This document shows, piece after piece, positions 2,568 through 19,631 of a stretch of DNA of 20,488 bases (position 1 is the first letter of the stretch; every line of letters starts with the position of its first letter). The notes below the pieces were generated by a model. The model was not told the origin of the DNA. It saw nothing but the letters and a program-made list of their open reading frames with translations, and searched no databases. This stretch comes from Acidobacteriaceae bacterium (lineage in GTDB: Bacteria; Acidobacteriota; Terriglobia; Terriglobales; Acidobacteriaceae). The stretch lies in assembly GCA_003133425.1 (NCBI GenBank), contig PKXI01000386.1:9833-30320 (forward strand). The letters are read 5' to 3'. A program made the position numbers and the translations under genes.

Positions 2568-5500
2568 TTACGGCTCCGGAGTTACCTTTACAGGATTGAG
2601 TGAGACTCCATCGGTCGCCTCGAGTGGACTATGGCCAACATTCACCACAATATAAGGTGTTTCCTTCGCCATGTCCGGGTAGATCTTGCCATTTCCCGCG
2701 TTGTCCATCACCTCGAACAAGTACATCAGGTCGAATTGAGGATTGAGATCTTGCGCAGGAATCGTCGCCTCATATTCGTTACCGCCCCCAGTGGGCAGCA
2801 TCTCCAGCGTCTTGAAATCCTGAAACTGGCTCACGCCGCGGTAGCGAAGATGAACCCACTTCACACCCGACGAATCTTCAACGTGCGCGGTAATTCGCAG
2901 CGGCTTCAGCGGCTCTGCAGACAAAATCGGTGTGTGATGCAGTGTTGGAGGCTCGTCATCTCTGGTGACCAAAACAGAGATCGGGTTAGCCCTGCCCTCC
3001 TCAGGAAAGGTGGAAATGCGCCCCGAGGAATCCGTCGCCTCCAGAAAATACGACATTCCCGCACGCAGTTTCGCTGCGGGAATCGTTCCCTCATACCGCG
3101 GTCCACCGCCCTGCAACTCAGTCATCGTGAAGCCGCGTCGTGCGTCGCCGAAATAGACGCGCACATTCACAATTGGCGCCGTGCCTGCAACCGTCGCCCG
3201 AAGCTTCAAGTCCTGCCCAGGTGCGAGCCGCGCCACGGGCACGTGCGCAATGACCGGATCAATCCGGGTCACAACCATCGTGCTGCCATACGCGTCCGCG
3301 CTTGTAGCGTGGTCGAGCAACACTTTCAGTTTTCCCCGGATCGCCGAAGCTTCAAGCGTCCGTTCAACGGTCTGCCCGGCCGGCACCTCAAAGATATCGC
3401 TGTACTCCGCTCCGTTCACATTCACCCACATCGGACCATGGATCGCTTTGTCATCATGAATACTCACTGCCACTTCGTATCGTCCATCCGGCACATTCAA
3501 CACCGCCAAATGACCTCCAGCGCTCCCGGTTGTCGCAATGCGCTGAAACCCCGGCAGCGTCGGCCCGAATCCAAAATCGTACCGGCCCACCACGCGCCGC
3601 CCCTCGAGTTTGTACTCCTCGCGCTGCTTCTTTAGGGCAGCAAGCCCGTCCTTCAGCTTCACCAGTTCATCCCGCCAGTGGCCGCTCAAATCATGCTGCG
3701 GAAGTCCCATCATCAAATCGAAGCCATACACATCGCCGGCGTCCTTGACCATCTCCGCCCAGCCGTTGGTAGCCTCCGTCTCCTGGTGGATCGCATCGTC
3801 GAGCTCATTCAGGTCGTGCGTCCTTTCAAACAACGCATAACTCAGACCGGCCAGGACGCGGTGCGAGTGATAATCCGCCAGGTCGGAAAGCATCTTCAAA
3901 TCGACCATCGTCGAAACAAACTCTTTGCTTGGATGCGGCCCCGCATTCTTCTCTGCCTCCCCAACCAGCGTCCTCACATCGCTGGATGCGCGAGCAAACC
4001 ACGCGCTTGTCCGAATCGGTGTCATCTTCGCCGAAGAATGTCCCCGTAAAATATCCTCGGCGGCATCCTTCAAGCTTTCAAACTGCTGCGTATCGCTCGG
4101 CGTCGCCTTCACGTACTCAGGTAAATCTCCCTCGCGCTGGCGTTCCGGCCACCCCTCCGTCGTCGGATAGTGATCGGGCGGCAGGCAATAGGCCGTAATC
4201 TCCGGAAGTATCTGGCTGGCCCGCTCCAATCCCCGTTTCACATAAGGCCCGGCACCCTCGCCGAAGTGCGCAACAAACCCGTGCTCCAACTCTTCCGTCT
4301 GCGTGCCTGGGTCGTAAGACAATCGTCCGAACACCTGGAAAAAATACCAGTAGCGCTGAAATTCATAGTCATAGTAACGGTAAGCGGGTTGAAGCAAATC
4401 CGGCGGCTTCATATCGTGAGTATGGCCCTGCATCTTCGTCGCCAACGGCTCATACACATCGAATCCGTCTACCCCGCCAAGATGGCTCATCGCAGCGAAG
4501 CGCCGCACATACTCCGGATCGCCCCACAGTAAAACACGCGTCGTACCCGACGTCCACAAAGTCCAATGCAGCTTGTAAATGCGCGGATACTTCAACATGT
4601 CCGCATACCCGCCGCGCCGGTTGAACTGGTCTGGCTCCTGCACATGCGTCGGCGAGAAGGGCAAGCCTACCTGCTCAGCCCAGTACTTCGTGTTGACCCG
4701 CATCTTCAGGCCGAGGTCGATTCCCTGCTTTACCAGATCGTCGGAGACGCCCTTGGCGCGAAGCTCGTATTGGATGTTGGGCGCTGCCTCCTTCAACGCA
4801 GGAAAGATATTTTTCCAGAACACCTTCATGTCCGAAGTCTTCAATCCCGACTCATCCATCATCAGCAGTTGAACGCCGTCAATTTCATGAAACTCCGTCA
4901 GGAACTGCTTGATCGCCGCCAGGGTATAAGCAATCAGGTTGTTTTCCGAAAGTCCCTCCACCGTATCCATAACCGGCTTTGAATGATCGACTAGCACCCA
5001 ACCCTTCATCGTGGAGTTAAACGGAATCGTGTTCCGGTAGTAGTGGCACCAGATCCCAAACGTCACGCGTATACCACGCGCGTGCGCCAGGCGGACAAGA
5101 CGATGAAGATCGGAAAGATTGCGTTGCTGGTCTTCCTTGCTCAGACCCGTGACCTTCACTTCCGGAAAACCATGCACGTCCATGTAGTACGGATAGACCG
5201 GACAGTTGTAGCCATTCGCCTCGTAGGCGAACATCACCTCGATCGAATTGAAACGGTCCTCCGCCAGCATGTCGAAGTATTTGACCCAGTAGTTCTCGTC
5301 GTGAAGGCGATCTTCATACTGATGCTTCTGCATCGTCGTGATCACCATGTCACGATCGGCAACGCTCGGGGATTCAACCGTGTCTTTCACTTCGCTGAGA
5401 GGCGCTGCTTTGACTTTCGCCCATCCAATTCGATCCGCAATCTCAAGCAGCGCATACATCAGGCCGCGGTCATCGCTCCCGCTCACCAGTAGCGCTTGCT

Positions 5501-5846
5501 TGCCTTGCCATTCCCCCCTGTGGATCACCAGCGATTCCGGTTTGTCCGGCATCTTCACGCCGAGCGCCCGAATCCTCTCAGCGACTGAGCCGGAAGCAGA
5601 ATCAAACCACGAGCCCGCTGCAATCAATACTTCGCCGTGCGCAGCTTTAGCATCGGAAACTTCTTCGTAGCGAACATCCGCCGCCGCAAGTGCAGCCTTC
5701 ACTTTGTCCCATCTGTGCATCGTCGCCGGGCCAGGCTGACCTTCTTGGACGATGGAAACTTGACACGCTCTATCTCCGCTGTGATTCGGCGCGATGGGAT
5801 TAATCAGTGAAAGAAGTGCAGTGACCAATGAGAAAAAATTTGTCAT
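2568..5846 (-). CDS. Large multidomain glycoside-hydrolase-like secreted protein
   Basis: This encodes 1092 aa with a hydrophobic N-terminal segment (residues 4-19) suggesting export. Residues about 30-160 resemble the alpha/beta domain that precedes the catalytic barrel in GH20 and GH67 enzymes (LLVSGSDDRGLMYALLEIAD). Residues about 165-500 look like a (beta/alpha)8 barrel, with RFNSIEVMFAYEANGY, ARGIRVTFGIW and an acidic pair Asp331-Glu332 in GVQLLMMDESG that is a candidate catalytic site. A helical region follows (about 510-745). Residues about 750-862 are a beta-sandwich beginning YDFGFGP, similar to carbohydrate-binding modules in pectin-degrading enzymes. Two tandem Ig/Fn3-like repeats span about 865-962 and 963-1071. 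I cannot assign an exact GH family or substrate. Its position beside a beta-glucuronidase-like GH2 and a TonB-dependent receptor suggests work on a uronate-bearing glycan. A truncated paralogue lies just upstream. Confidence 0.75.
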   Translation of the reverse strand: MTNFFSLVTALLSLINPIAPNHSGDRACQVSIVQEGQPGPATMHRWDKVKAALAAADVRYEEVSDAKAAHGEVLIAAGSWFDSASGSVAERIRALGVKMPDKPESLVIHRGEWQGKQALLVSGSDDRGLMYALLEIADRIGWAKVKAAPLSEVKDTVESPSVADRDMVITTMQKHQYEDRLHDENYWVKYFDMLAEDRFNSIEVMFAYEANGYNCPVYPYYMDVHGFPEVKVTGLSKEDQQRNLSDLHRLVRLAHARGIRVTFGIWCHYYRNTIPFNSTMKGWVLVDHSKPVMDTVEGLSENNLIAYTLAAIKQFLTEFHEIDGVQLLMMDESGLKTSDMKVFWKNIFPALKEAAPNIQYELRAKGVSDDLVKQGIDLGLKMRVNTKYWAEQVGLPFSPTHVQEPDQFNRRGGYADMLKYPRIYKLHWTLWTSGTTRVLLWGDPEYVRRFAAMSHLGGVDGFDVYEPLATKMQGHTHDMKPPDLLQPAYRYYDYEFQRYWYFFQVFGRLSYDPGTQTEELEHGFVAHFGEGAGPYVKRGLERASQILPEITAYCLPPDHYPTTEGWPERQREGDLPEYVKATPSDTQQFESLKDAAEDILRGHSSAKMTPIRTSAWFARASSDVRTLVGEAEKNAGPHPSKEFVSTMVDLKMLSDLADYHSHRVLAGLSYALFERTHDLNELDDAIHQETEATNGWAEMVKDAGDVYGFDLMMGLPQHDLSGHWRDELVKLKDGLAALKKQREEYKLEGRRVVGRYDFGFGPTLPGFQRIATTGSAGGHLAVLNVPDGRYEVAVSIHDDKAIHGPMWVNVNGAEYSDIFEVPAGQTVERTLEASAIRGKLKVLLDHATSADAYGSTMVVTRIDPVIAHVPVARLAPGQDLKLRATVAGTAPIVNVRVYFGDARRGFTMTELQGGGPRYEGTIPAAKLRAGMSYFLEATDSSGRISTFPEEGRANPISVLVTRDDEPPTLHHTPILSAEPLKPLRITAHVEDSSGVKWVHLRYRGVSQFQDFKTLEMLPTGGGNEYEATIPAQDLNPQFDLMYLFEVMDNAGNGKIYPDMAKETPYIVVNVGHSPLEATDGVSLNPVKVTPEP

Positions 5847-6456: not shown

Positions 6457-7413
6457 TCAATCCTTGTGAACTGTCTTAGGTGTGTAGGCCACCAGGTTCG
6501 AATCGGTCAACCCCTCCACCGGCCACCGAGGCCGGCGGCCGTTGATGATCGGAAGATGATCCCAAACGCCGTTGGTGTAATAGGAACTGTGGCCATCATA
6601 AATGTGGTCCCATATTCCCAGCGTGAACCTCAATCCACGCTCGTGTGTCATTGCGATTATCCGGTTCAGAGCATGCAAATATCGCTGCATCGCTTCTGGA
6701 GTGACGCCTGCCGCTTTCACCTCTGGAAACTCGGGAAGTTCAAAGAACCATGGATATGGTGGAGCAAGAAAGCCGGAAGACTCGTAGGCAAACAACAGAG
6801 AGAAATTGTTGAAGCGATTGCGCACCAGGTTGTTGAGGTAAACATCCCAGAACGTCTCATCGAAGAGGCGGCTCTCGAAGTATGCCTGCTGCATGGTATA
6901 CATCGATAGGGAACGGTCACGCACCGCGGGCGATTCACTCTGATTCCGCAGGGCCATTAGCGCCGACTGAGGACTTTCGCTGGTTTCTATTAGATCTGCG
7001 ATTGAATAAAGCGCATAGGCAAGCGCAAGTGCGTCAGCGCCACAAACAAGCGCAATATTCTTATTTCCCACCATTCCACTTTGAATAACGAAGGACTCTT
7101 TGCCGTAAGGGCTCGGAGCACCTAGCTGAGTGCTCAATTGGCGCACTGGGGAGGCTTGATCACTGCGGCAGCTGATGACCAACAGGTAATCTGCGAGTGT
7201 GTCATCGATCACCTGGACGCGCCTCAGGCCGACCCCTTTCTTCTCACAAGCGCGTTCAATCGCCTGCACCCCGAATGCTGCCGCCGGTCCGGCCGATTGA
7301 TCGAGATAGTATGCAATCTGGCGCGGCGGCTTTGACTGGACCGCAAAAGCGAGGAAGGAATTGTTCACGGTTGTAGCACCCACAACTCCCTGCACAAACT
7401 CTCGTCTGTTCAT
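6457..7413 (-). pseudogene. Truncated paralogue of the adjacent GH-like protein
   Basis: The frame gives 318 residues, starting at an ATG with AAAGGA six bases upstream. The N-terminus MNRREFVQGVVGATT carries a twin-arginine-like export signal, unlike the intact copy. Residues about 174-270 align closely with residues 172-267 of the 1092-aa neighbour: MQQAYFESRLFDETFW against MQKHQYEDRLHDENYW, FAYESSGF against FAYEANGY, and ERGLRFTLGIW against ARGIRVTFGIW. EGLTDSNLVAY matches EGLSENNLIAY, and similarity then ends abruptly with TPKTVHKD and a stop. The break falls about 20 residues before the putative catalytic Asp-Glu pair, so the product would have half a barrel and no active site. It is most likely a pseudogene made by deletion or recombination. 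A non-catalytic secreted binding protein is less likely. Confidence 0.8.
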
Positions 7414-7770: not shown

Positions 7771-9630
7771 TTACTCCGCCTTCCCGTATGCACCATCCTT
7801 GTAGATCTTCTGGATGAAAAAGAACGCCTGCTTCTTCTTGCCGTCTTCCGAAATCAATCCCTTGCGGTTGTAACCGTCCTGAAGCAGAGGAATATTCCGA
7901 GTGGGCGAACGAAAGTCCATGAGCACCCATGGCGCGAAACCACGTATCTGCGGAATCCTGGAAAGCATCACGAAGTTGTGGCGATAGAAGTCAAGCTGGA
8001 ACTCTTCTGTCCATCGCTGGTCTTTGGGGCCATGGTTTCCGGCCTTGGCTTCGGCGCCGAATTCGCTGATGATGATAGGCTTTTCAGGCAACTCGAATTT
8101 GACGTTTTCTGCTTGATCGGGAGTGTAGGTGTACCACCCGACGTATTCATTGACGCCAACTACATCGAGCGCCTTGGCTAACGGGTCAGTAAGGATCTTC
8201 GTGTCTCCCGGAGTTTGAGGCTGAAGGAGGGCGCCTGTGACCAGGCGCGTGGAGTCGACTCTGTGAGCTTCAGAGGCCAGGTTCGTGAGGAACTCAGTGC
8301 GCGTGGCGTTGTCCGGTGTCTCGTTGGCCACCGACCACAGAATGACGGATGCTTTATCGCGGTCGCGGCGGATCATCTCATGCAGCATCGCAACTGCCTT
8401 GGCATACACGCTGGGCTTGTCATAGGAGATGTGTTGCCATATCGGAATCTCAGACCACACCATAATGCCGTTGCGGTCCGCCGTGCGCTCCATGCGTTCG
8501 TCCTGCGGATAGTGGCAAAGCCGTACAAAGTTCGCGTTAAGGTCCTTGAGGAATCCGAAGATCGCTTCGACATCTTTGTCTGAGTCAACGCGCCCGGTTC
8601 GGTAGGGCGCCTCGGCGTGAGCATTTGCACCGCGCAGAAAGACCGGCTTGCCGTTCAGCAGTATTTCCGTACCGTCAACGCGGATATCCCTGAAGCCGAT
8701 GTCATCGGTGAGCCGGTCCTGGCCAGTCTCAATCTGGACTTTATAGAGCTTCGGGCTTTCGGGCGACCAAAGACTCAGTTTCTTTGCTGGAATTTGAAAC
8801 TCCGCACGGCCGCTGGCGTCGGTTTTCACGGTGGCATCAAGCCCGGCCTCGGGAATGCGGATGGTCACCGGAGTTCCTTCGGTTGCGTCCTCTACGTGGA
8901 CATAACCGTCAATGCTGTCCATGGTCTCGGATTTAATATGCAAATCGAAGTCATCGACAAACGCCTTGGGCACATCCACGAGCGACACGTCGCGCGTAAG
9001 CCCTCCGTAGTTGTACCAGTCCGTATTGACACCGGGAATTCCGTCCACGAGGCGAGTCGAATCCACCGCGATGACGACGAAGTTGTTGCCGGGATGCAGA
9101 ACGGCCGTCACCTCGCAATCGAAGGGCGTGAAGCCGCCCTCGTGGTCGCAGATTCTCTTCTGATTGACCCAGACATAGGAGCGATAGTTGGCCGCACCGA
9201 TGTGCAGGAAGGTTCGCATATCCGGCTTAGGCTGGTAGTCAAAGTCGCGCTCATACCAGAGGATGCCTTCGTAGCGAAATAGCGTTGGCTCCTGCGTATT
9301 CCAGTCGCCGGGAACTTTGAGGGTGGGGGCGTTGGCGAAATCGTATTCCTGTACCCTGCGCTCGCCCACTAGCGTGGGATGCTCATTAAGCCCGTAGCCG
9401 TTGTCGCGCACCGTTCCCTCGGGGTTGTATAGACTTCTCCCAGTCATGTCCACCAGGTAGTGCCAATCCCCATCCAGGCTTGTCGCGGGTCGATGGTCGA
9501 CATCAACGATAAGGGTCTTCAAAGGCTGCTGCGCAAAGACGGAGGCCGCGCAGAGACCGCCGAGAATCATTACCCGGCAAATAATGCTAAGACTGCGAAA
9601 TGAACAAAGACTTCTTGAATACCACTCCAT
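7771..9630 (-). CDS. Secreted GH2 enzyme, probable beta-glucuronidase
   Basis: I chose the ATG at 9628-9630 because AGGAGAG sits just upstream; the frame is open to 9672. The 619-aa product begins with a signal peptide (hydrophobic 20-33, cleavage near VFAQ). The GH2 layout is present: sugar-binding domain (about 45-220, with GILWYERDF and GVNTDWYNYGGLTRDV), immunoglobulin-like domain (about 221-318) and TIM barrel (about 320-615). The acid/base is Glu437 in SVANE, and the nucleophile is Glu523 in IIISEFGAEA. Asn588-x-Lys590 in GYNRKGL corresponds to the N-x-K motif that binds the uronic acid carboxylate in beta-glucuronidases, and this favours glucuronidase over galactosidase. Length is close to that of E. 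coli UidA (about 600 aa). It lies downstream of a TonB-dependent receptor, separated by a strong hairpin. Periplasmic or extracellular removal of beta-linked glucuronate (or galacturonate) is the likely role. Confidence 0.88.
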   Translation of the reverse strand: MEWYSRSLCSFRSLSIICRVMILGGLCAASVFAQQPLKTLIVDVDHRPATSLDGDWHYLVDMTGRSLYNPEGTVRDNGYGLNEHPTLVGERRVQEYDFANAPTLKVPGDWNTQEPTLFRYEGILWYERDFDYQPKPDMRTFLHIGAANYRSYVWVNQKRICDHEGGFTPFDCEVTAVLHPGNNFVVIAVDSTRLVDGIPGVNTDWYNYGGLTRDVSLVDVPKAFVDDFDLHIKSETMDSIDGYVHVEDATEGTPVTIRIPEAGLDATVKTDASGRAEFQIPAKKLSLWSPESPKLYKVQIETGQDRLTDDIGFRDIRVDGTEILLNGKPVFLRGANAHAEAPYRTGRVDSDKDVEAIFGFLKDLNANFVRLCHYPQDERMERTADRNGIMVWSEIPIWQHISYDKPSVYAKAVAMLHEMIRRDRDKASVILWSVANETPDNATRTEFLTNLASEAHRVDSTRLVTGALLQPQTPGDTKILTDPLAKALDVVGVNEYVGWYTYTPDQAENVKFELPEKPIIISEFGAEAKAGNHGPKDQRWTEEFQLDFYRHNFVMLSRIPQIRGFAPWVLMDFRSPTRNIPLLQDGYNRKGLISEDGKKKQAFFFIQKIYKDGAYGKAE

Positions 9631-9803
9631 TTCAACTCTCCTGCACGCGTATAGGTTAGCCCACAAGCTCAACTAAGAGTTTCGTAGTGCGCACTCTATC
9701 AATTCTGGACATTCTCCGTTTAGTGGGTGCGAGAGGTTAGCGACCGCCTCTGATCAAGCCCGTCAGGAGCGACTGTCCACGGTATCAATTACAGGCAAAA
9801 CTT

Positions 9804-9868: not shown

Positions 9869-12800
9869 CTAGAATGTCACCTTGGCACCCAACTGTAGCT
9901 GCCTGTTAGGATATGCTCCGTTCAGTCTACCGAACGAAGATCCGCTGGTCGCGGTCGTGCCCAGCGAGCTGTAGTTGCAATGGTTCAGGGCATTGAAAGC
10001 ATCAGCCTGGAACTTGAAGTTGACCCGCTCGGTGATGACGAACGCCTTGGTGAAGGTCAGGTCCACCTGCTGGAGCGAGGGGAGCTCAACCTGTCCGACG
10101 CCGGCGTTTCCGAAGGCATTGCCAGGAGCCGCAGTCCACGCGGCCTGGTTGAGCCATTGAGCCTGGTGACTGGCCAGGGCGAAGCGGCTTCCCTTGGCGT
10201 AGAAAGCCGAACCGGCAACGTAATTTGCGCGGCGGGTCCCAAGAGTTGGAGCGCTTCCGGTTATGGAGTAATACGGTCCGCTCTGGTAGCGGTAAACTCC
10301 GGTCAACTGCACCCCGCCGATTGCCTCGCGAATCAGAAGGTTTTTGCCCGCAAAGTTAGGCAACTGCCACGTCACCGTGTTGATGAACGCATGTCTGCGA
10401 TCGATGCTCAGCGGACCATAGTTGTATGCACGGTTCTGCCACCACTCCAGCCCCGTATTGTTCGTCGAAGAATCGCCCAGGGTCTTGCCAAATGTGTAAC
10501 CGCTGGTAAAGGTCAACTCACCTGTGCGCTTGGTGAGATAAACCTGCAGGGCGTTGTAGTTGGAGTTAGAGTCGCTTCGGTTCTGGGAAATCCCAGTGAA
10601 GCCCTGGTACTGGTTGAAATAATTTGTGTTGTAGCTGGTATTCGTTGCCACTTGCGCGGGAGTGGGCGTGTTGACATTCGGCTGACGCAGCAGGTGATGT
10701 CCCGCATTGCCAACGTAGGTAGTCTCCAGGAGCATACTCCACGGCAATTCCCGCTGAACGCCGAGGCTGTAGTCCTCAACATATGAGCTCTTCAGCTTTG
10801 GATCGATTGCTGAAATGCTTCCCTGCAAAGCGGTGTTGTTGGGCGTACCGCCGGAGATGTTTGCGAGATTTGCATTGTCGAATTCGACACTCTGCAACCA
10901 GGGCTGTACGTTGACCTGGCTGAAGGTTACGTTTCCTTCCACGCGGTAGTAAAAAATCCCGAAACCGCCGCGGACCGAAGTCTTTGAATCGGGAGCGTAG
11001 GCAAACCCGACGCGCGGGCCAAAGGCGCCCTTCATGTCGTAGAAACCGCGCGGCGCACCCAGCGGAATCTGCGGAAAGGCAGCAGTGTTTATGTTGGGCA
11101 CGCGAATTGCCTGATCGGAGGGAACGCCGTCGCCCGCGCGAACCAGGCCGTTGTAAGGGTTGCCGGAGCCGGGAACGACCTTTCCGGTGGTTAGGACCGT
11201 AATGACTTGGGATGCGCTATAGACAGAGGGGTCGAAATTTGACATGTTATTGCCCTGCGCATAGAGCGGGCTAATCAACTGCCAACGCACGCCGTACTCG
11301 AGACTGACCTTCTGGGTAGCTCTCCAGGTGTCCTGAACGAAAGCCTCCGGCTGGTTGAAGCGGAAGTGGCCGGTAGGATCGGCGCTCGCTTCCGTGTAGG
11401 CCTGGAAGTTGCCCAAGAGAGCATCTGCCAATGCATTGCCGGTTGTGTTTGTGCTGCTGCTGGTTGAGAAGTTGATCTGACCGTCGTATTGCGGCCGGCC
11501 ATTCTGGTCAACACGGTTGCGAATGTAGATTCCACCGAACTTGAATAGATGGTTGCCCTTGATGAGCGACATGGTATCTGCAAGCTGAATGTCTGTGGTC
11601 GGCGAATGCAACGCGAAGTTCGGACCCTGGAAGGAGGCGAAATTCTGAATCGTCACATAGGGTATCCCAGTCGGATAGGGCCCGGCGCCCGGGAAGAGCT
11701 TGTTGTACTGGAAGCCGTAAGTTGACCGTTTCCAGTTCACGCCGTAAGGAGGAATGTTCTGTGAGACCCAACTGAAGTTCACCGTCACCTGGTTGATCAT
11801 GGTCGGCCGGATCGTCCAGCTCTCGGATGCGAGGTAGCTCTGGCCGGGACGGTTGCGGGTAGTCGGCGTAGTTGGCAGGTTACTGCTGGAGAACGTTCCG
11901 AATGGATCGATCAGGCTGTTCGAGTCGTTGATCCATCTCCCAAAGAGGTTGTGCTTGGTGTTGATGGCGTAGTCGATCCTGACGATATCTTCGCGGTAGT
12001 TGAGCGGATTGAGCGGAATCAGGGTCAGGTTGTTGGTGGCGCCCGTTTGATCGGTATACGTACCGAGCTTATTCATTGTTGTGAAGACGTTCGCAATGGC
12101 TTTGCCGTCGGTCGTCATCATGGACGCGATGTTGTTATTTGGAATAGGATTCGTCGTCCCAGGGAAATTGAGTTGAGCCACGCCGGCGAAATTTCCGGCA
12201 AGTTGCGCGGAGCTTGGTGTGGTCTGCACAGAGGGAGACTGCTGCTGGCGAAGCCGTTTCCATTCCTCACCTGCGAAGAAGAACAACTTGTCCTTCAGTA
12301 TTGGACCGCCGACAAAGTAGCCGAAATTGTTGTAAACCAGTTGCGTCTTGATCGAGCTAAAGTACGGCCTGGCGTCAAGGTCATTATTGCGAAGGTACTC
12401 GACCGCGCCCCCATGGAACTGGTTGGTGCCGCCCTTGGTGACAATGTTGAACGCAGGCCCGGAGGTTCTGCCGAATTCCGCCGAGAAGTTGGAGGTCTCG
12501 ATCTTTACTTCCTTGATAAAGTCGGGGCTAACGTTGTTGATCAGGCTCCCATTGCTACCCGAAGCCTGGTTGAAAGCGCCGTCCACGGTCAGATTGGCGG
12601 AGTCGGCCCGGTTGCCGTTCACAACCTGGTTAGTCGAGTTCAGCCCGGTGGTAACCGAGAAGATATCCGGATTTGTTACGACCGCGCCAGGAATCAGCGT
12701 AAGCACCTGAGTGTAGTTGCGCCCGTTTAGCGGAAGCGCTTCGACTTCTTTCGTGTCAATGACGTGGGCAAGTTCGCCGCTGGTGGTATTCAATGTTTCG

Positions 12801-13180
12801 CCAGCGATTGCGGTCACCGTGACCTCTTCAGTGACTGCACCGACCTGTAATTGAAAGTTTGCAGAAAGGTGAGCATCCGCGATGACGGAGAGACCGGTGT
12901 GTCTCGCTGGGCCATAGCCCTCCTTCTTGACTGCCACCGAGTAGTCGCCGATGGGCAAGTTGGTGGCGATAAAGTATCCGTTATCGTCTGAGGTTGCTGT
13001 TTTGATGGCTCCCGTCCCGCCATTTGTGATGGTGATTGCAGCCCCGGGAATGATGGCGCCGGTTGTGTCGGTCACGACGCCGGAGATCTGCCCTAGTGAG
13101 GTTTGTGGATGCAGTGACGTGCTCAAGCCGATAACAACCATGAGCGTCACAGCCAATCGCGTAAGGAATTGTCGCGTCAT
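9869..13180 (-). CDS. TonB-dependent outer-membrane receptor with carboxypeptidase-regulatory domain (Oar-like)
   Basis: This encodes 1103 aa, with AGGAGA six bases before the ATG. A signal peptide covers about residues 1-28. Residues about 30-112 form a CarboxypepD_reg-like beta-sandwich (GQISGVVTDTTGAIIPGAAI, then GYFIATNLPIGDYSV). A plug domain follows (about 130-260) with LPLNGRNYTQVLTLIPG and FSAEFGRTSGPAFNIVTKGG, and the rest is a large beta-barrel ending in an aromatic residue (LGAKVTF), as outer-membrane barrels do. This architecture is highly expanded in Acidobacteriota and is thought to take up oligosaccharides or other large substrates using TonB energy. No SusD-like partner lies nearby, so it is not a Bacteroidetes-type PUL. 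The downstream GH2 and GH-like genes suggest a uronate-containing glycan as ligand. A malectin regulator lies divergently upstream. Confidence 0.92.
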   Translation of the reverse strand: MTRQFLTRLAVTLMVVIGLSTSLHPQTSLGQISGVVTDTTGAIIPGAAITITNGGTGAIKTATSDDNGYFIATNLPIGDYSVAVKKEGYGPARHTGLSVIADAHLSANFQLQVGAVTEEVTVTAIAGETLNTTSGELAHVIDTKEVEALPLNGRNYTQVLTLIPGAVVTNPDIFSVTTGLNSTNQVVNGNRADSANLTVDGAFNQASGSNGSLINNVSPDFIKEVKIETSNFSAEFGRTSGPAFNIVTKGGTNQFHGGAVEYLRNNDLDARPYFSSIKTQLVYNNFGYFVGGPILKDKLFFFAGEEWKRLRQQQSPSVQTTPSSAQLAGNFAGVAQLNFPGTTNPIPNNNIASMMTTDGKAIANVFTTMNKLGTYTDQTGATNNLTLIPLNPLNYREDIVRIDYAINTKHNLFGRWINDSNSLIDPFGTFSSSNLPTTPTTRNRPGQSYLASESWTIRPTMINQVTVNFSWVSQNIPPYGVNWKRSTYGFQYNKLFPGAGPYPTGIPYVTIQNFASFQGPNFALHSPTTDIQLADTMSLIKGNHLFKFGGIYIRNRVDQNGRPQYDGQINFSTSSSTNTTGNALADALLGNFQAYTEASADPTGHFRFNQPEAFVQDTWRATQKVSLEYGVRWQLISPLYAQGNNMSNFDPSVYSASQVITVLTTGKVVPGSGNPYNGLVRAGDGVPSDQAIRVPNINTAAFPQIPLGAPRGFYDMKGAFGPRVGFAYAPDSKTSVRGGFGIFYYRVEGNVTFSQVNVQPWLQSVEFDNANLANISGGTPNNTALQGSISAIDPKLKSSYVEDYSLGVQRELPWSMLLETTYVGNAGHHLLRQPNVNTPTPAQVATNTSYNTNYFNQYQGFTGISQNRSDSNSNYNALQVYLTKRTGELTFTSGYTFGKTLGDSSTNNTGLEWWQNRAYNYGPLSIDRRHAFINTVTWQLPNFAGKNLLIREAIGGVQLTGVYRYQSGPYYSITGSAPTLGTRRANYVAGSAFYAKGSRFALASHQAQWLNQAAWTAAPGNAFGNAGVGQVELPSLQQVDLTFTKAFVITERVNFKFQADAFNALNHCNYSSLGTTATSGSSFGRLNGAYPNRQLQLGAKVTF

Positions 13181-13254
13181 TTTGTCTCCTGAAAGTGTTG
13201 TGAAATCCGTCGCACCGGGACACGCATACGGCGGATAGCGTTTCGGTTGGAAAG

Positions 13255-13281
13255 CGGCAACAATTGAACATCCTGTTGCCG
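13255..13281 (-). other. Hairpin upstream of the receptor gene
   Basis: CGGCAACA at 13255-13262 pairs with TGTTGCCG at 13274-13281 around an 11-base loop. It sits 33 bases after the stop of the GH2 remnant and 75 bases before the receptor start. It has no T-run on the minus strand. It could be the old terminator of the vanished GH2 gene or a structure in the receptor mRNA leader. Confidence 0.35.
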
Positions 13282-13313
13282 CCCCGCTTTTCAGCCAAAA
13301 GGCGTGAGGCCTG

Positions 13314-13508
13314 TCAGGTCTCTTGCCATTTGGTGTAGTCTGTCTTGCCGGTGGTGCCCTCCCTGAAGATCCTTGCTTTGCGAAAGAACGCCTTTTCCTT
13401 GTTGACGCCTTCAGAGATCAAGCCTTTGCGGCTGTTGCCGTCCTTTAGCAACTGAATATGCCGCGCTTGAGAGCGAAAATCCATCAAGACTCAAAAGGCG
13501 AGCCCACG
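13314..13508 (-). pseudogene. C-terminal remnant of a second GH2 glycosidase
   Basis: Reading leftward from 13508 gives RGLAF, a TGA, then VLMDFRSQARHIQLLKDG, NSRKGLISEGVNKEKAFF and a natural stop at 13314-13316. The intact GH2 at 7771-9630 reads RGFAPWVLMDFRSPTRNI, then LLQDGYNRKGLISEDGKK in the same place, so this is the last ~65 codons of a paralogue. The conserved Trp codon has become TGA, the Asn of N-x-K is Ser, and nothing recognisable remains of the sugar-binding domain or catalytic barrel. It lies upstream of the receptor gene, in the same orientation. It is not translated as a functional protein. Confidence 0.85.
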
Positions 13509-14069
13509 CGATAATCGCCTAAAGTCTGACCGCGAAATCAACAAGCCACAACCCGTGTGATCGGCAAGGGCCGATTCCTGGATCCTCGCGCATTTTCCGC
13601 GCGCTAAATCATGGCCTCCCGAACCATGTCTTTTTCCCGACTGGAGGCTTCTCCGTCTCTTGCAGTGTCCTATTTCAATCTCAAAGACAGTTGCTTTATA
13701 AGATCGCGGAAAGAGTACCGGGTGGCGTTGCGGCAGGGTAGGTTACAGAAAGTTACAATTCAAGACGTTACATCGCAAGTTGTTGATAAATATTAAGTTG
13801 AATTTACGTTAACAACAATCTGGGTGGTTCAAATCGACCAATGAATAAGCTCTTTACGATTCGGTCACGCACACGCCAGATGTGTCGAATCTGCGAAGGA
13901 GGGTAGCGTGCGCGGCTTCTCCAACGCGTTGAGCGAGTGACGCATGTTGACCGTGTTCCTGTGAAGAATGGTTCATGTAAGCCATTTACTATCAGAATCT
14001 TACGATTATTGATTCGCGAATTACAGAGGTTGTATACTCTGGCTAGGAAGCTGATTCGGCAGAGGCATT
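13509..14069. promoter_or_regulatory. Divergent regulatory region between the receptor side and the malectin regulator
   Basis: No gene is visible in these 561 bases. The stretch from about 13740 to 13860 and the end near 14000 are AT-rich compared with the flanking genes. GTTACA occurs three times in the same orientation at 13742-13747, 13752-13757 and 13767-13772, spaced 10 and 15 bases apart, which is an operator-like pattern. The regulator's own promoter lies at 14009-14038. Outward transcription toward the receptor could also start here. Confidence 0.4.
14009..14038 (+). promoter_or_regulatory. Sigma70-type promoter of the malectin regulator gene
   Basis: TTGATT at 14009-14014 and TATACT at 14033-14038 are separated by 18 bases and resemble vegetative -35 and -10 boxes. 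The start codon follows 31 bases after the -10 box, with an AGAGG ribosome-binding site at 14061-14065. The motif match is good, but transcription is not demonstrated. Confidence 0.55.
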
Positions 14070-15701
14070 ATGAATCGGGATGAAAGCCTGATCGAGGAAG
14101 TCCCGGCAAGGCGGGATTTCCACGCAGAACGGCTGGAGCTTCAGACGGTTCTAGCGACTGCGCTGAACCGCTCCTCCAATATGAAGCGGCTGCTTCTCTA
14201 TATCTGCGATCGGTATTTTTGCGGGCAAGCTGCTGATATTAAAGAGTATAGTATCGCTGTAGATGCGTTCGGGCGCTCGCCGGAATTCGACCCGGCCGTT
14301 GACTCCATCGTTCGCGTAGAGGCGTTTCGCCTTCGCGCCAAACTTGCGCGCTACTACCAGCAAAAAGGCGCCCGGCAACGAGTTCAGATTGTGTTGCCCG
14401 TCGGAGGTTATGTCCCTCAGTTTATTCACCTGCCCGCCGACGAGGTGCCTGCGTCCGATAGTGAAGGTCCCTTGCACATGCTGCAAACGATTCGTCTTGA
14501 GGCGATCCCTGTAGTTCAACCTGCCGTTTTGGCTGTCCTCGACCGCCCAGAGAAGGCGAAGACAACCGTCCAATGGCCTACGGCTCGCTTTTGGTTTGTC
14601 CTCATCGCGGTAGCTGCTTTCCTGACTCTGGCCGCACTCTCTGTATGGCGCTTTGCAAAACCCGGCATGAATGCCTCCAATGCGCTGCAAGTTGGGGCGG
14701 TAGCCAACTCTGCTTTGGAGCCCAACACGCTCCAGGTCCCTACCCCGAATGATTCATCCGCAGTTCGAATCATGGCTGGAAGCAAGTCCTCTGAAGTGAC
14801 CGATGAGCGCGGAGAAATTTGGTGGGGCGACCGCTACTTTCAGGGCGGCGATCCTGAGGCTATCTCACCAAGAACTTTCGATTTCACCTCAACTCCGTCA
14901 CTCTATTTTCGTCGTCGCCGCGGAAGTTTCAGTTATGCGATTCCGCTCCGGAAGGGGATTTATGAATTGAAGCTTCATTTTGCCGATGCCTTCTTCGGAC
15001 AGGACAACCCGGAAGAAGGGGGCGAAGGCAGCAGGCTGTTCGATGTGAAGGCAAACGGCAAGGCCCTCCTGAGCGAATTTGATGTAATCGCGGATGCGGG
15101 CGGATCCAACACCGCGGACGTCAAGGTCTTCAGAGATATTCGACCGGCGACCGACGGTTTCCTGCATCTGGATTTCATCTCGCGCCGCAATGTTGCCTTC
15201 ATCAATGCCATTGAAGTCTTGCCCGAAACATCGCAAAAGATAATTCCGATTCGGATCTATGCGGGGACCACCGATTACAAGGATAGTGCGGGAATTGTCT
15301 GGAATTCAGACCGGTATTTTCGGGGCGGGGTCCATCATCACCAACTTGCAAACCAATCGGCAATTGCAGATTCGAGTGGATTCACGGATGAGCGATTCGG
15401 CAACTTCATATATCAATTGCCAGTTGCCGAAGACGGAGTCTATATCGCCAGATTGCGATTTTGCCCGGAAAACATAATCACTCCGCAACCTACCGACAAT
15501 CTCGGTAATATCTTCACCGTCCATTTGAACGGATCGACGCTTTTTGAAAATTTCGAGATACCGGCAGGGACGCAATCGACAGGCTGTGTCGTGAGACAAT
15601 TCACTGGACTCAAGCCCAATGCGCAAGGCAAGCTCATTTTCTCTTTTGTTCCCGTCCGCGGCTATGCTTCCGTAAGTTCCATCGCAATCGATGAAGAATG
15701 A
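14070..15701 (+). CDS. Membrane one-component regulator with two malectin carbohydrate-binding domains
   Basis: This 543-aa protein has three parts. Residues about 20-120 form a helical, basic domain (LLLYICDRYF, DIKEYSIAVDAFGRSPEFDP, SIVRVEAFRLRAKLARYY, VGGYVPQF). That pattern is common at the N-terminus of acidobacterial membrane proteins and resembles a winged-helix DNA-binding domain; I infer DNA binding. Residues about 173-195 (FWFVLIAVAAFLTLAALSVW) are a single transmembrane helix. Outside the membrane, residues about 232-385 and 394-541 are two malectin-like domains, each starting RI-AG, followed by a W--DRYF-GG motif and closing with a strand that reads INAIEVLP or VSSIAIDEE. Malectin domains bind oligosaccharides. 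The layout parallels CadC/ToxR-type sensors: sugar outside, DNA inside. It is transcribed away from the receptor and GH genes, as expected of their regulator. Loss of DNA binding in favour of a purely structural role is the alternative. Confidence 0.82.
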   Translation: MNRDESLIEEVPARRDFHAERLELQTVLATALNRSSNMKRLLLYICDRYFCGQAADIKEYSIAVDAFGRSPEFDPAVDSIVRVEAFRLRAKLARYYQQKGARQRVQIVLPVGGYVPQFIHLPADEVPASDSEGPLHMLQTIRLEAIPVVQPAVLAVLDRPEKAKTTVQWPTARFWFVLIAVAAFLTLAALSVWRFAKPGMNASNALQVGAVANSALEPNTLQVPTPNDSSAVRIMAGSKSSEVTDERGEIWWGDRYFQGGDPEAISPRTFDFTSTPSLYFRRRRGSFSYAIPLRKGIYELKLHFADAFFGQDNPEEGGEGSRLFDVKANGKALLSEFDVIADAGGSNTADVKVFRDIRPATDGFLHLDFISRRNVAFINAIEVLPETSQKIIPIRIYAGTTDYKDSAGIVWNSDRYFRGGVHHHQLANQSAIADSSGFTDERFGNFIYQLPVAEDGVYIARLRFCPENIITPQPTDNLGNIFTVHLNGSTLFENFEIPAGTQSTGCVVRQFTGLKPNAQGKLIFSFVPVRGYASVSSIAIDEE

Positions 15702-18099: not shown

Positions 18100-18639
18100 T
18101 TAAACCGGAATTTGAACACTGCCTCTCGGCTCCCGAGCAATATACCAGAGTTGCCTCCGCTCACAATCTTCTTTGCATTTGGTCCAGGGCTTCTCGCTGG
18201 CAACACGGCGATCAAAGAACAGCACATTCGCCTTCACCCCCTGCGCGTAGAAGATGCCCGTAGGCAGGCGCAACAGCGTGTGCACATCGCAATCATGCAG
18301 CAACCGCCGTCGAATCAGCTCGCCCGCTCCGCCTTCAAACAGCACGTTGTCCGGCACCACCACCGCAGCACGGCCATCGATCTTCAAAATCGAGCGCACG
18401 TGCTGCACAAAGTTAAGCTGCTTGTTGCTCGTCGTCGCCCAAAAGTCGTCGCGCACAATCGTCAGCGTCTCGCGCTGCTCGTCGCCGTCTTCGCCGATCA
18501 CAGTAATGCTCGACTTCTTGCCGAACGGAGGATTGGTCAGCACCATGAGCTGCTCAATGTAGTCCTGATACGACAGGCCGTCATCGCGCAGGATGTTGCA
18601 GTAGTTCCACAGCTTCTGGACGATGGCGTTCGAGGTCAT
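18100..18639 (-). pseudogene. hsdM: Internally deleted type I restriction-modification methylase subunit (HsdM)
   Basis: The start ATG at 18637-18639 overlaps the stop of the TPR gene (ATGA). The 179-aa frame begins MTSNAIVQKLWNYCNILRDD, then GLSYQDYIEQLM, the N-terminal end of HsdM. It then jumps in frame to VLTNPPFGKKSSITV, which carries the N6-adenine methylase motif IV (NPPF). Normal HsdM has roughly 200 or more residues between these points, including the N-terminal helical domain and the AdoMet-binding motif (DPACGTGGF); both are missing. The part after NPPF is good (VVVPDNVLFEGGAGELIRRR, LPTGIFYAQGVKANVLFFDR), but the C-terminus ends early and unlike HsdM (AREPRGSVQIPV). No hsdS or hsdR is in view. 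It cannot methylate DNA and is probably a pseudogene, though the frame is intact across the deletion. Confidence 0.85.
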
Positions 18640-19631
18640 TGCACTCTCTTCCCTTTGATCGGAACTCTCGTGAGGGCAGCCTTGCTCGGAATCGCGCGGC
18701 TGCCTTCCGCCAATTGCCGATCCATCAGCCAGAACACTGCATCTTTGTGCAGCGACCAGGCGAGGCCCACGCCATCCATGCACATCGTAGCTTCTTCCTC
18801 GCTGCCCAGCGAGTACATGTCAGGCAACTCCTGCGGAATCGCCCTCTTGCCGGTCATGTAAAGCTCCACAAGAGGGTTTGCCTGCCGCGCCGTTTTCAGC
18901 GTGACAGCGGCGCCGGCGGGGTCGCCGGCCAGAAAGCGCTCCAGCACGCGGCCCCATGCAAAGTTCGCTCCAGCGTCGTCCTTGTAACTCTTTAGCAGTT
19001 TGCCCGCACCTACCAAATCGTCCGCGCACAGATACGCGCCCAGCAGCGAATCGCGCACGCCCTGGTTGTCGTTGGGATTCAGTTCCAGCATCCTCTCGTA
19101 GACGCGGATTGCATCCAGATTCAGTCCCTGTGCGAAAAGCAGGCGGGCAAGCTGCTCCATGGCGCGCATATACGGACGCGTCTCCATCAGCATCCAGAAA
19201 TGCCCCGTGTTCTCGCGGATGAACTCCGCGCCCAGCGAGCGCTCCCCGGCGGCCACCGCTTGCTGCAGACCCGCGATCATCGCCTGCGTCGTGCGCGCAT
19301 CCAGATCGGTCATCACTACCAACGCGTCTACGCAGTCCGGGGCCAGCCGCAGGGCGCGTTTGGCCAGCTTGCGCGCCTGCGCCTCGGTTTCAGCTTCCAT
19401 GGCCTCGAAAGCTAGATCCTGCGCCTCTGCCTTCGCATCCGCCTCTTCATCGCTCAATCCGTCCGTTGCAGACGGACCGTGCAGCGAGGCCAGCAGAGCG
19501 TCCAGATCGTCCTGCGTAATCAGATCGCCGCCCGCCATCAGCTTTTCCATCTGGCGCATTGCCGCTGCAATTTCTGTATTTGGAGCAGACTTTTTCTTCG
19601 AAGGAGATTTTTTCGCTGCCTTCTTCGTCAT
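18636..19631 (-). CDS. ST7-like tetratricopeptide-repeat protein
   Basis: This encodes 331 aa, with GAGGA six bases before the ATG. The Lys-rich N-terminus (MTKKAAKKSPSKKKSA) and absence of a signal peptide point to a cytoplasmic protein. An acidic helical stretch precedes TPR-type helices from about residue 75 to 255. The best-conserved block is ENTGHFWMLMETRPYMRAME, followed by RVYERMLELNPNDNQGVRD, which is typical of a widespread bacterial TPR family related to the ST7 domain; LPDMYSLGSEEEA lies near the C-terminus. TPR proteins act as scaffolds or chaperone-like adaptors, and no enzymatic motif is visible. The gene lies 37 bp downstream of the toxin gene and overlaps the hsdM fragment by four bases, so it sits inside a possible operon. 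Specific role unknown. Confidence 0.85.
   Translation of the reverse strand: MTKKAAKKSPSKKKSAPNTEIAAAMRQMEKLMAGGDLITQDDLDALLASLHGPSATDGLSDEEADAKAEAQDLAFEAMEAETEAQARKLAKRALRLAPDCVDALVVMTDLDARTTQAMIAGLQQAVAAGERSLGAEFIRENTGHFWMLMETRPYMRAMEQLARLLFAQGLNLDAIRVYERMLELNPNDNQGVRDSLLGAYLCADDLVGAGKLLKSYKDDAGANFAWGRVLERFLAGDPAGAAVTLKTARQANPLVELYMTGKRAIPQELPDMYSLGSEEEATMCMDGVGLAWSLHKDAVFWLMDRQLAEGSRAIPSKAALTRVPIKGKRVQ

Follow-up and report, generated by a model that had tools for sequence, protein, structure and literature searches.

Transcription regulators of the CadC/ToxR type combine a cytoplasmic OmpR/PhoB-like winged helix, a single transmembrane (TM) helix and an extracytoplasmic sensor in one polypeptide, and act on a neighbouring operon. 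In Bacteroidota, the SusR and HTCS regulators of receptor loci are local membrane sensors as well, assigned to their own outer-membrane receptor locus. Here we describe a putative regulator from the Acidobacteriota, which are major soil bacteria. The stretch analysed, hereafter the window, comprises 20,488 nucleotides of contig PKXI01000386.1 (assembly GCA_003133425.1) from an Acidobacteriaceae bacterium, and the protein in question, P0001, carries two malectin domains and is encoded divergently from an outer-membrane receptor. It is likely that P0001 is a transmembrane transcription regulator which adjusts the expression of the receptor operon to a ligand encountered by its malectin domains, and that it does so via GTTA repeats in the intergenic region shared by the two genes. 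Our computation supports the domain layout, the fold resemblance of the N-terminal domain (N-domain), the conserved pairing with a receptor and the phased, oriented repeats. The protein is best filed among the CadC/ToxR-type regulators as a variant. It would share their architecture and their action on the neighbouring operon, but its predicted winged helix falls below the Pfam cut-off, its model contains an extra N-terminal helix and its sensor is a malectin tandem. Furthermore, its candidate operator takes the form of a direct repeat; for CadC, two sites, TTAxxxxT, in head-to-head order are described (PMC5430869). Unlike SusR and HTCS, it has no kinase or AraC part, and it was not related to them by any test run.

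The open reading frame (ORF) lies where the initial annotation had placed it and starts with ATG (Table 1). The one-component membrane layout proposed there, with an N-domain, one TM helix and two malectin modules in one polypeptide, was recovered with both Pfam and AlphaFold2. Malectin (PF11721) matched at 98.1 bits over two stretches, passing the Pfam cut-off of 23 bits, and no other Pfam family matched the protein at E <= 1. In the AlphaFold2 model, which was built on 79 aligned sequences and has a mean pLDDT of 79.6, the part C-terminal to the TM helix forms two beta-sandwich regions (residues about 232-385 and 394-542). A hydrophobic 19-mer at the position of this helix exceeded the threshold in 78 of the 79 aligned relatives, and the flanking K/R residues were more numerous before the helix in 36 relatives, equal in 16 and fewer before it in 27. 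Among the 7996 candidates with most shared words, the only ones covered by homologue scoring, 699 matched at E <= 0.001, and query coverage was at least 95% in most of the 120 homologues listed. The layout is therefore more than a product of chance.

The N-domain is most likely a diverged OmpR/PhoB-like winged helix, for which DNA binding is predicted from the model and the sequence. It was modelled as helices at residues 18-30, 36-50, 59-66 and 80-97 and strands at 105-108 and 117-120 that form a closing beta-hairpin. The ten best rows of a second structural comparison were all of the OmpR/PhoB type, in keeping with the DNA-binding-type domain first proposed. Profile evidence points the same way, with Trans_reg_C (PF00486) matches in 12 members of a Pfam scan of 81 N-domains, and the predicted recognition helix is R-rich and conserved in the family. 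The domain had also been described as basic; with 18 K/R and 17 D/E in residues 1-125, it is not notably so. Two results speak against the fold assignment: Foldseek alone gave no significant structural match for the N-domain, and the domain of the window did not match Trans_reg_C at the cut-off of 26.2 bits. In the three genomes also searched with PF00486, all 24 places holding the N-domain missed that cut-off, one of them at 22.6 bits. Matches to AAA_assoc_C in 8 of the 81 N-domains (best 0.026) and to 13 other families in one or two members each were judged to be noise, and the designed-looking PDB entries cs207A and cs207AB, to which the sequence profile of the N-domain matched at E of about 1, were discarded.

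The pairing of the regulator with a divergent outer-membrane receptor is conserved. We examined the neighbourhoods of 80 relatives, the best among 260, each of which comes from a named genome and bears an Acidobacteriota name in its title. Cultured species with a malectin regulator include Edaphobacter aggregans and Occallatibacter savannae. A divergent OMP_b-brl_4 receptor lay within 1.5 kb in 35 of the 80 loci, which bears out the receptor linkage anticipated in the initial annotation, and a divergent secreted TPR protein was present in 29. The remaining loci comprised one with a same-strand receptor, 12 with neither partner and three with less than 700 bp upstream, where nothing was found; in five of the 12 partnerless loci (L034, L039, L049, L056 and L072), a receptor gene and a TPR gene, both same-strand, lie upstream. 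As background, in 20 random 20-kb regions of the relatives' genomes, a divergent receptor accompanied 3 of 260 genes and a divergent TPR protein none of 260. These neighbourhood counts rest on greedy ORF calls made in the present analysis and on profiles constructed from the neighbours, 25 receptors and 18 TPR proteins, some of which were then counted themselves. PF25183 matched at least 44 times per genome in seven of eight genomes searched and 10 times in the remaining one. On a tree of 66 receptors, the malectin-linked ones clustered, with 11 label changes against a mean of 21.4 and a minimum of 15 in 500 shuffles, a comparison that ignores the shared history of related genomes. The TPR partners are small, apparently secreted proteins of about 250-290 aa (e.g., in loci L007, L010, L011, L025, L048, L062 and L071).

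The regulator has an upstream intergenic region, as had been noted, although its actual extent is 13181-14069 and the 13509-14069 given initially was too short. Across 65 regions between regulator and partner, with no word preselected, direct repeats of an exact 6-mer spaced 10 bp apart were over-represented. The recurrent word, GTTA, was picked from the same data, and dropping 22 redundant regions left 43 (33 with a receptor and 10 with a TPR partner). GTTA pairs 9-11 bp apart numbered 42 in these regions against 6.6 by random placement within the same sequences, with further excesses at 20-24 bp (32 versus 10.7) and 31-34 bp (24 versus 8.0), and none of 2000 random runs equalled any of these counts. 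No comparable spacing peak was found for inverted arrangements. GTTA-N6-7-GTTA occurred in 24 of the 43 regions (leaving out the window, 23 of 42) compared with 5 of 90 control divergent regions; by partner, it was present in 15 of 33 receptor regions and 9 of 10 TPR regions. The pairs lie at a median of 161 bp before the start of the regulator match and are oriented, 34 being in the regulator sense and 8 in the opposite one (23 versus 1 when GTTAA is left out). This direct-repeat arrangement would be nearer to that of PhoB. Within the region of the window, terminator-like sites numbered 0 (1.5 expected) and promoter-like sites 1 (0.7 expected). A small gene there was considered and rejected; the ORFs contained are all at most 61 aa, and no homologue search was made with them.

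The GTTA repeat pattern is mainly a feature of divergently arranged loci. A pair was found before the regulator in none of 13 loci without a divergent partner and was likewise rare in the 400 bp upstream of random genes (2 of 229). For the receptors of partnerless loci together with that of L043, the N6-7 pair occurred upstream in one of nine, L060 additionally having a pair at N5; of 36 receptors located near non-malectin N-domains or in the random regions, 4 had the GTTA pair. Among nine further loci from the phylum search, three had a pair at N5-7, one of which (L205) is the gene of L074 again. The scarcity of pairs in the partnerless loci, before regulator and receptor alike, weighs against the proposed role of the repeats, and so does the weaker excess in the control intergenics, which contained 13 GTTA pairs at 9-11 bp against 3.4 expected. 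The any-word excess at 10 bp comes partly from one tandem array in L045. Control divergent intergenics (L001-L080 flanks and L133-L152) also have strong direct-repeat peaks of their own at 7, 14 and 21 bp. No covariation was seen between the recognition helix and the presence of the operator.

The N-domain extends to a wider family. In eight genomes, picked for holding a malectin relative, a search with the N-domain profile returned 52 genes, whose C-termini, classed by similarity, were malectin in 13, a domain of about 230 aa in 30, TolB/TPR or PD40 in 4 and unassigned in 5. A divergent receptor accompanied 7 of the 13 malectin genes, another 4 of which had a divergent TPR protein, and 19 of the 30 genes with the about-230-aa domain, but none of the four TolB/TPR or PD40 genes, which have the same N-domain and differ in their C-terminal parts, and none of the five unassigned ones. 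The about-230-aa sensor is an unnamed family, most of its 30 proteins having one TM helix, and no Pfam family was found in the seven members scanned. In 19 regions of this class, GTTA pairs at 9-11 bp numbered 6 against 0.5 expected, and the N6-7 pair occurred in four. In wider samples, which include the centre genome G003, 26 genomes out of 199 from the phylum had the N-domain at E <= 1e-10, the highest copy number being 19, and 8 of 396 had a malectin relative at E <= 1e-30. Proteins outside the group have the N-domain too; their source records call them TolB-like protein and adenylate cyclase. We see an even chance that the N-domain marks a class of winged-helix regulators, membrane-bound and so far uncatalogued, which act as local controllers of Acidobacteriota outer-membrane receptor loci, with one conserved DNA-reading head, related GTTA-type direct-repeat operators and exchangeable sensors (the malectin tandem, the about-230-aa domain and others), each having its own adjacent receptor.

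According to the mechanism we propose, the regulator would reside in the inner membrane, with the winged helix inside and the tandem malectin module outside. A ligand outside, possibly a glycan or a uronate, would alter the malectin pair, and this change would pass through the single helix. The winged helices inside might then bind direct repeats of GTTA(C/A), oriented and spaced by about one helical turn, and the bound regulator, in whatever oligomeric state, would set transcription of the receptor operon by activation or repression. A sugar is a plausible ligand. The W-F of the family's second malectin domain aligns to the Y-F of malectin, which is part of the sugar site; domain 2 of the window has no W-F. 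Malectin itself and the malectin domains of GH2 beta-glucuronidases, which are the nearest to domain 1 of the window, are not regulators. The plant CrRLK1L receptors (ANX, FER) differ from the window protein in being eukaryotic receptor kinases, and comparison of their malectin pair with that of the window gave a root-mean-square deviation of 7.5-8.0, the relative placement of the domains being different.

The malectin pair might instead sense a protein or peptide, e.g., the partner TPR protein, the receptor or its cargo, so that the regulator would monitor the state of the receptor system and not a soluble glycan. Given the closeness of domain 1 to the beta-glucuronidase malectin domains and the GH2 gene adjoining the receptor in the window, we regard this as rather unlikely. 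It is improbable, too, that a different transcription factor reads the GTTA repeats while the regulator affects the receptor system in some other way. The pair is present in only 24 of the 43 divergent regions, and both the weaker excess in control regions and the lack of covariation with the recognition helix would fit such a reader; on the other hand, the repeats accompany both partner types, to which the regulator is the common element, and phased repeats recur beside the N-domain proteins with the about-230-aa sensor. OmpR/PhoB-type domains, moreover, suit direct repeats one turn apart. Least probable of all is protein binding by the winged helix in place of DNA binding, since several members match Trans_reg_C, the predicted recognition helix is conserved and R-rich, and the phased, oriented repeats lie between the genes.

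The GH2 gene behind the receptor is a possible co-target; its best NCBIfam models are beta-glucuronidases, at 249.1 bits and below the cut-off of 544. The initial annotation had linked the regulator to glycoside hydrolases, and in the window this gene indeed adjoins the receptor. The link does not generalise: a GH2 relative was present in one of the 80 loci, a glycoside hydrolase was the first gene behind the receptor in two of nine cases, and a conserved linkage to carbohydrate-active enzymes is not supported. Single scans of these nine first genes gave TPR in four and cytochrome c, FG-GAP/UnbV, GH9, GH130 and nothing in one each. Among 40 genes behind receptors, TPR families (12), FG-GAP (5) and UnbV (4) were matched at E <= 1e-6; the 40 come from the 16 of 35 divergent-receptor loci where the ORF caller gave complete same-strand genes, and the three L080 genes among them may be fragments of a receptor frame that is broken up. 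The window also encodes a 1092-aa protein (2568-5846, minus strand), which has a relative in only one of the 80 loci and no Pfam family at E <= 0.001; its start has a weak likeness to a model of alpha-galacturonidase, scoring 33.4 bits against a cut-off of 1300. A 318-aa ORF at 6457-7413 (minus strand) is similar to the start of this protein, at 34% identity over residues 29-308, and stops early, and no second copy of the rest was found within the window; it looks like a shortened paralogue. A 227-aa ORF at 18100-18783 (minus strand), overlapping a TPR ORF at 18636-19631, matches N6_Mtase in its middle part alone (127-235 of the 311 profile positions) and looks like a DNA methylase gene fragment.

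Table 1 Features of the regulator locus (positions in the window) and loci of the about-230-aa sensor proteins
Feature	Position	Strand	Basis
Malectin-type transmembrane regulator P0001, 543 aa	14070-15701	+	ORF call, ATG start, Pfam, homologues, AlphaFold2 model
N-domain, residues 18-120, predicted OmpR/PhoB-like winged helix	14121-14429	+	
Single TM helix, residues 173-195	14586-14654	+	AlphaFold2 model, hydrophobicity in relatives
Malectin domain 1, residues 231-387	14760-15230	+	Pfam, alignment, AlphaFold2 model
Malectin domain 2, residues 391-543, lacking the family-consensus stretch W-F-G-P	15240-15698	+	Pfam, alignment, model
Intergenic region common to divergent receptor and regulator	13181-14069		
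Candidate operator, GTTACA at 13742, 13752 and 13767	13742-13772	+	Sequence; family-wide phased GTTA direct repeats
Outer-membrane receptor (OMP_b-brl_4, CarboxypepD_reg), presumed target	9869-13180	-	PF25183, 630 bits
GH2 glycoside hydrolase behind receptor, possible co-target	7771-9672	-	Family match; nearest NCBIfam models beta-glucuronidase
About-230-aa sensor proteins	Loci L082-L083, L089-L095, L099-L100, L103-L105, L108, L110-L112, L117-L119, L124-L132		

In a literature search of mainly open-access papers, we found no report of malectin-type or CadC-like winged-helix regulators in Acidobacteria. Papers combining malectin with TonB-dependent systems or Acidobacteria were judged unrelated, and the text of PMC3174227 consulted mentions neither malectin nor CadC. 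An earlier survey of transmembrane regulators used Pfam models to recognise DNA-binding domains and placed Acidobacteriae among the groups with more such regulators per genome on average (PMC10269533). Because the survey relied on these models, regulators of the window type are probably absent from its counts. A regulator family that is invisible to Pfam-based surveys, and for which both an assigned neighbour and a candidate operator exist, opens receptor regulation to direct tests and offers a handle on the substrate taken up by each receptor. If the class outlined above is real, it would be the functional counterpart of the SusR/HTCS regulators of Bacteroidota.
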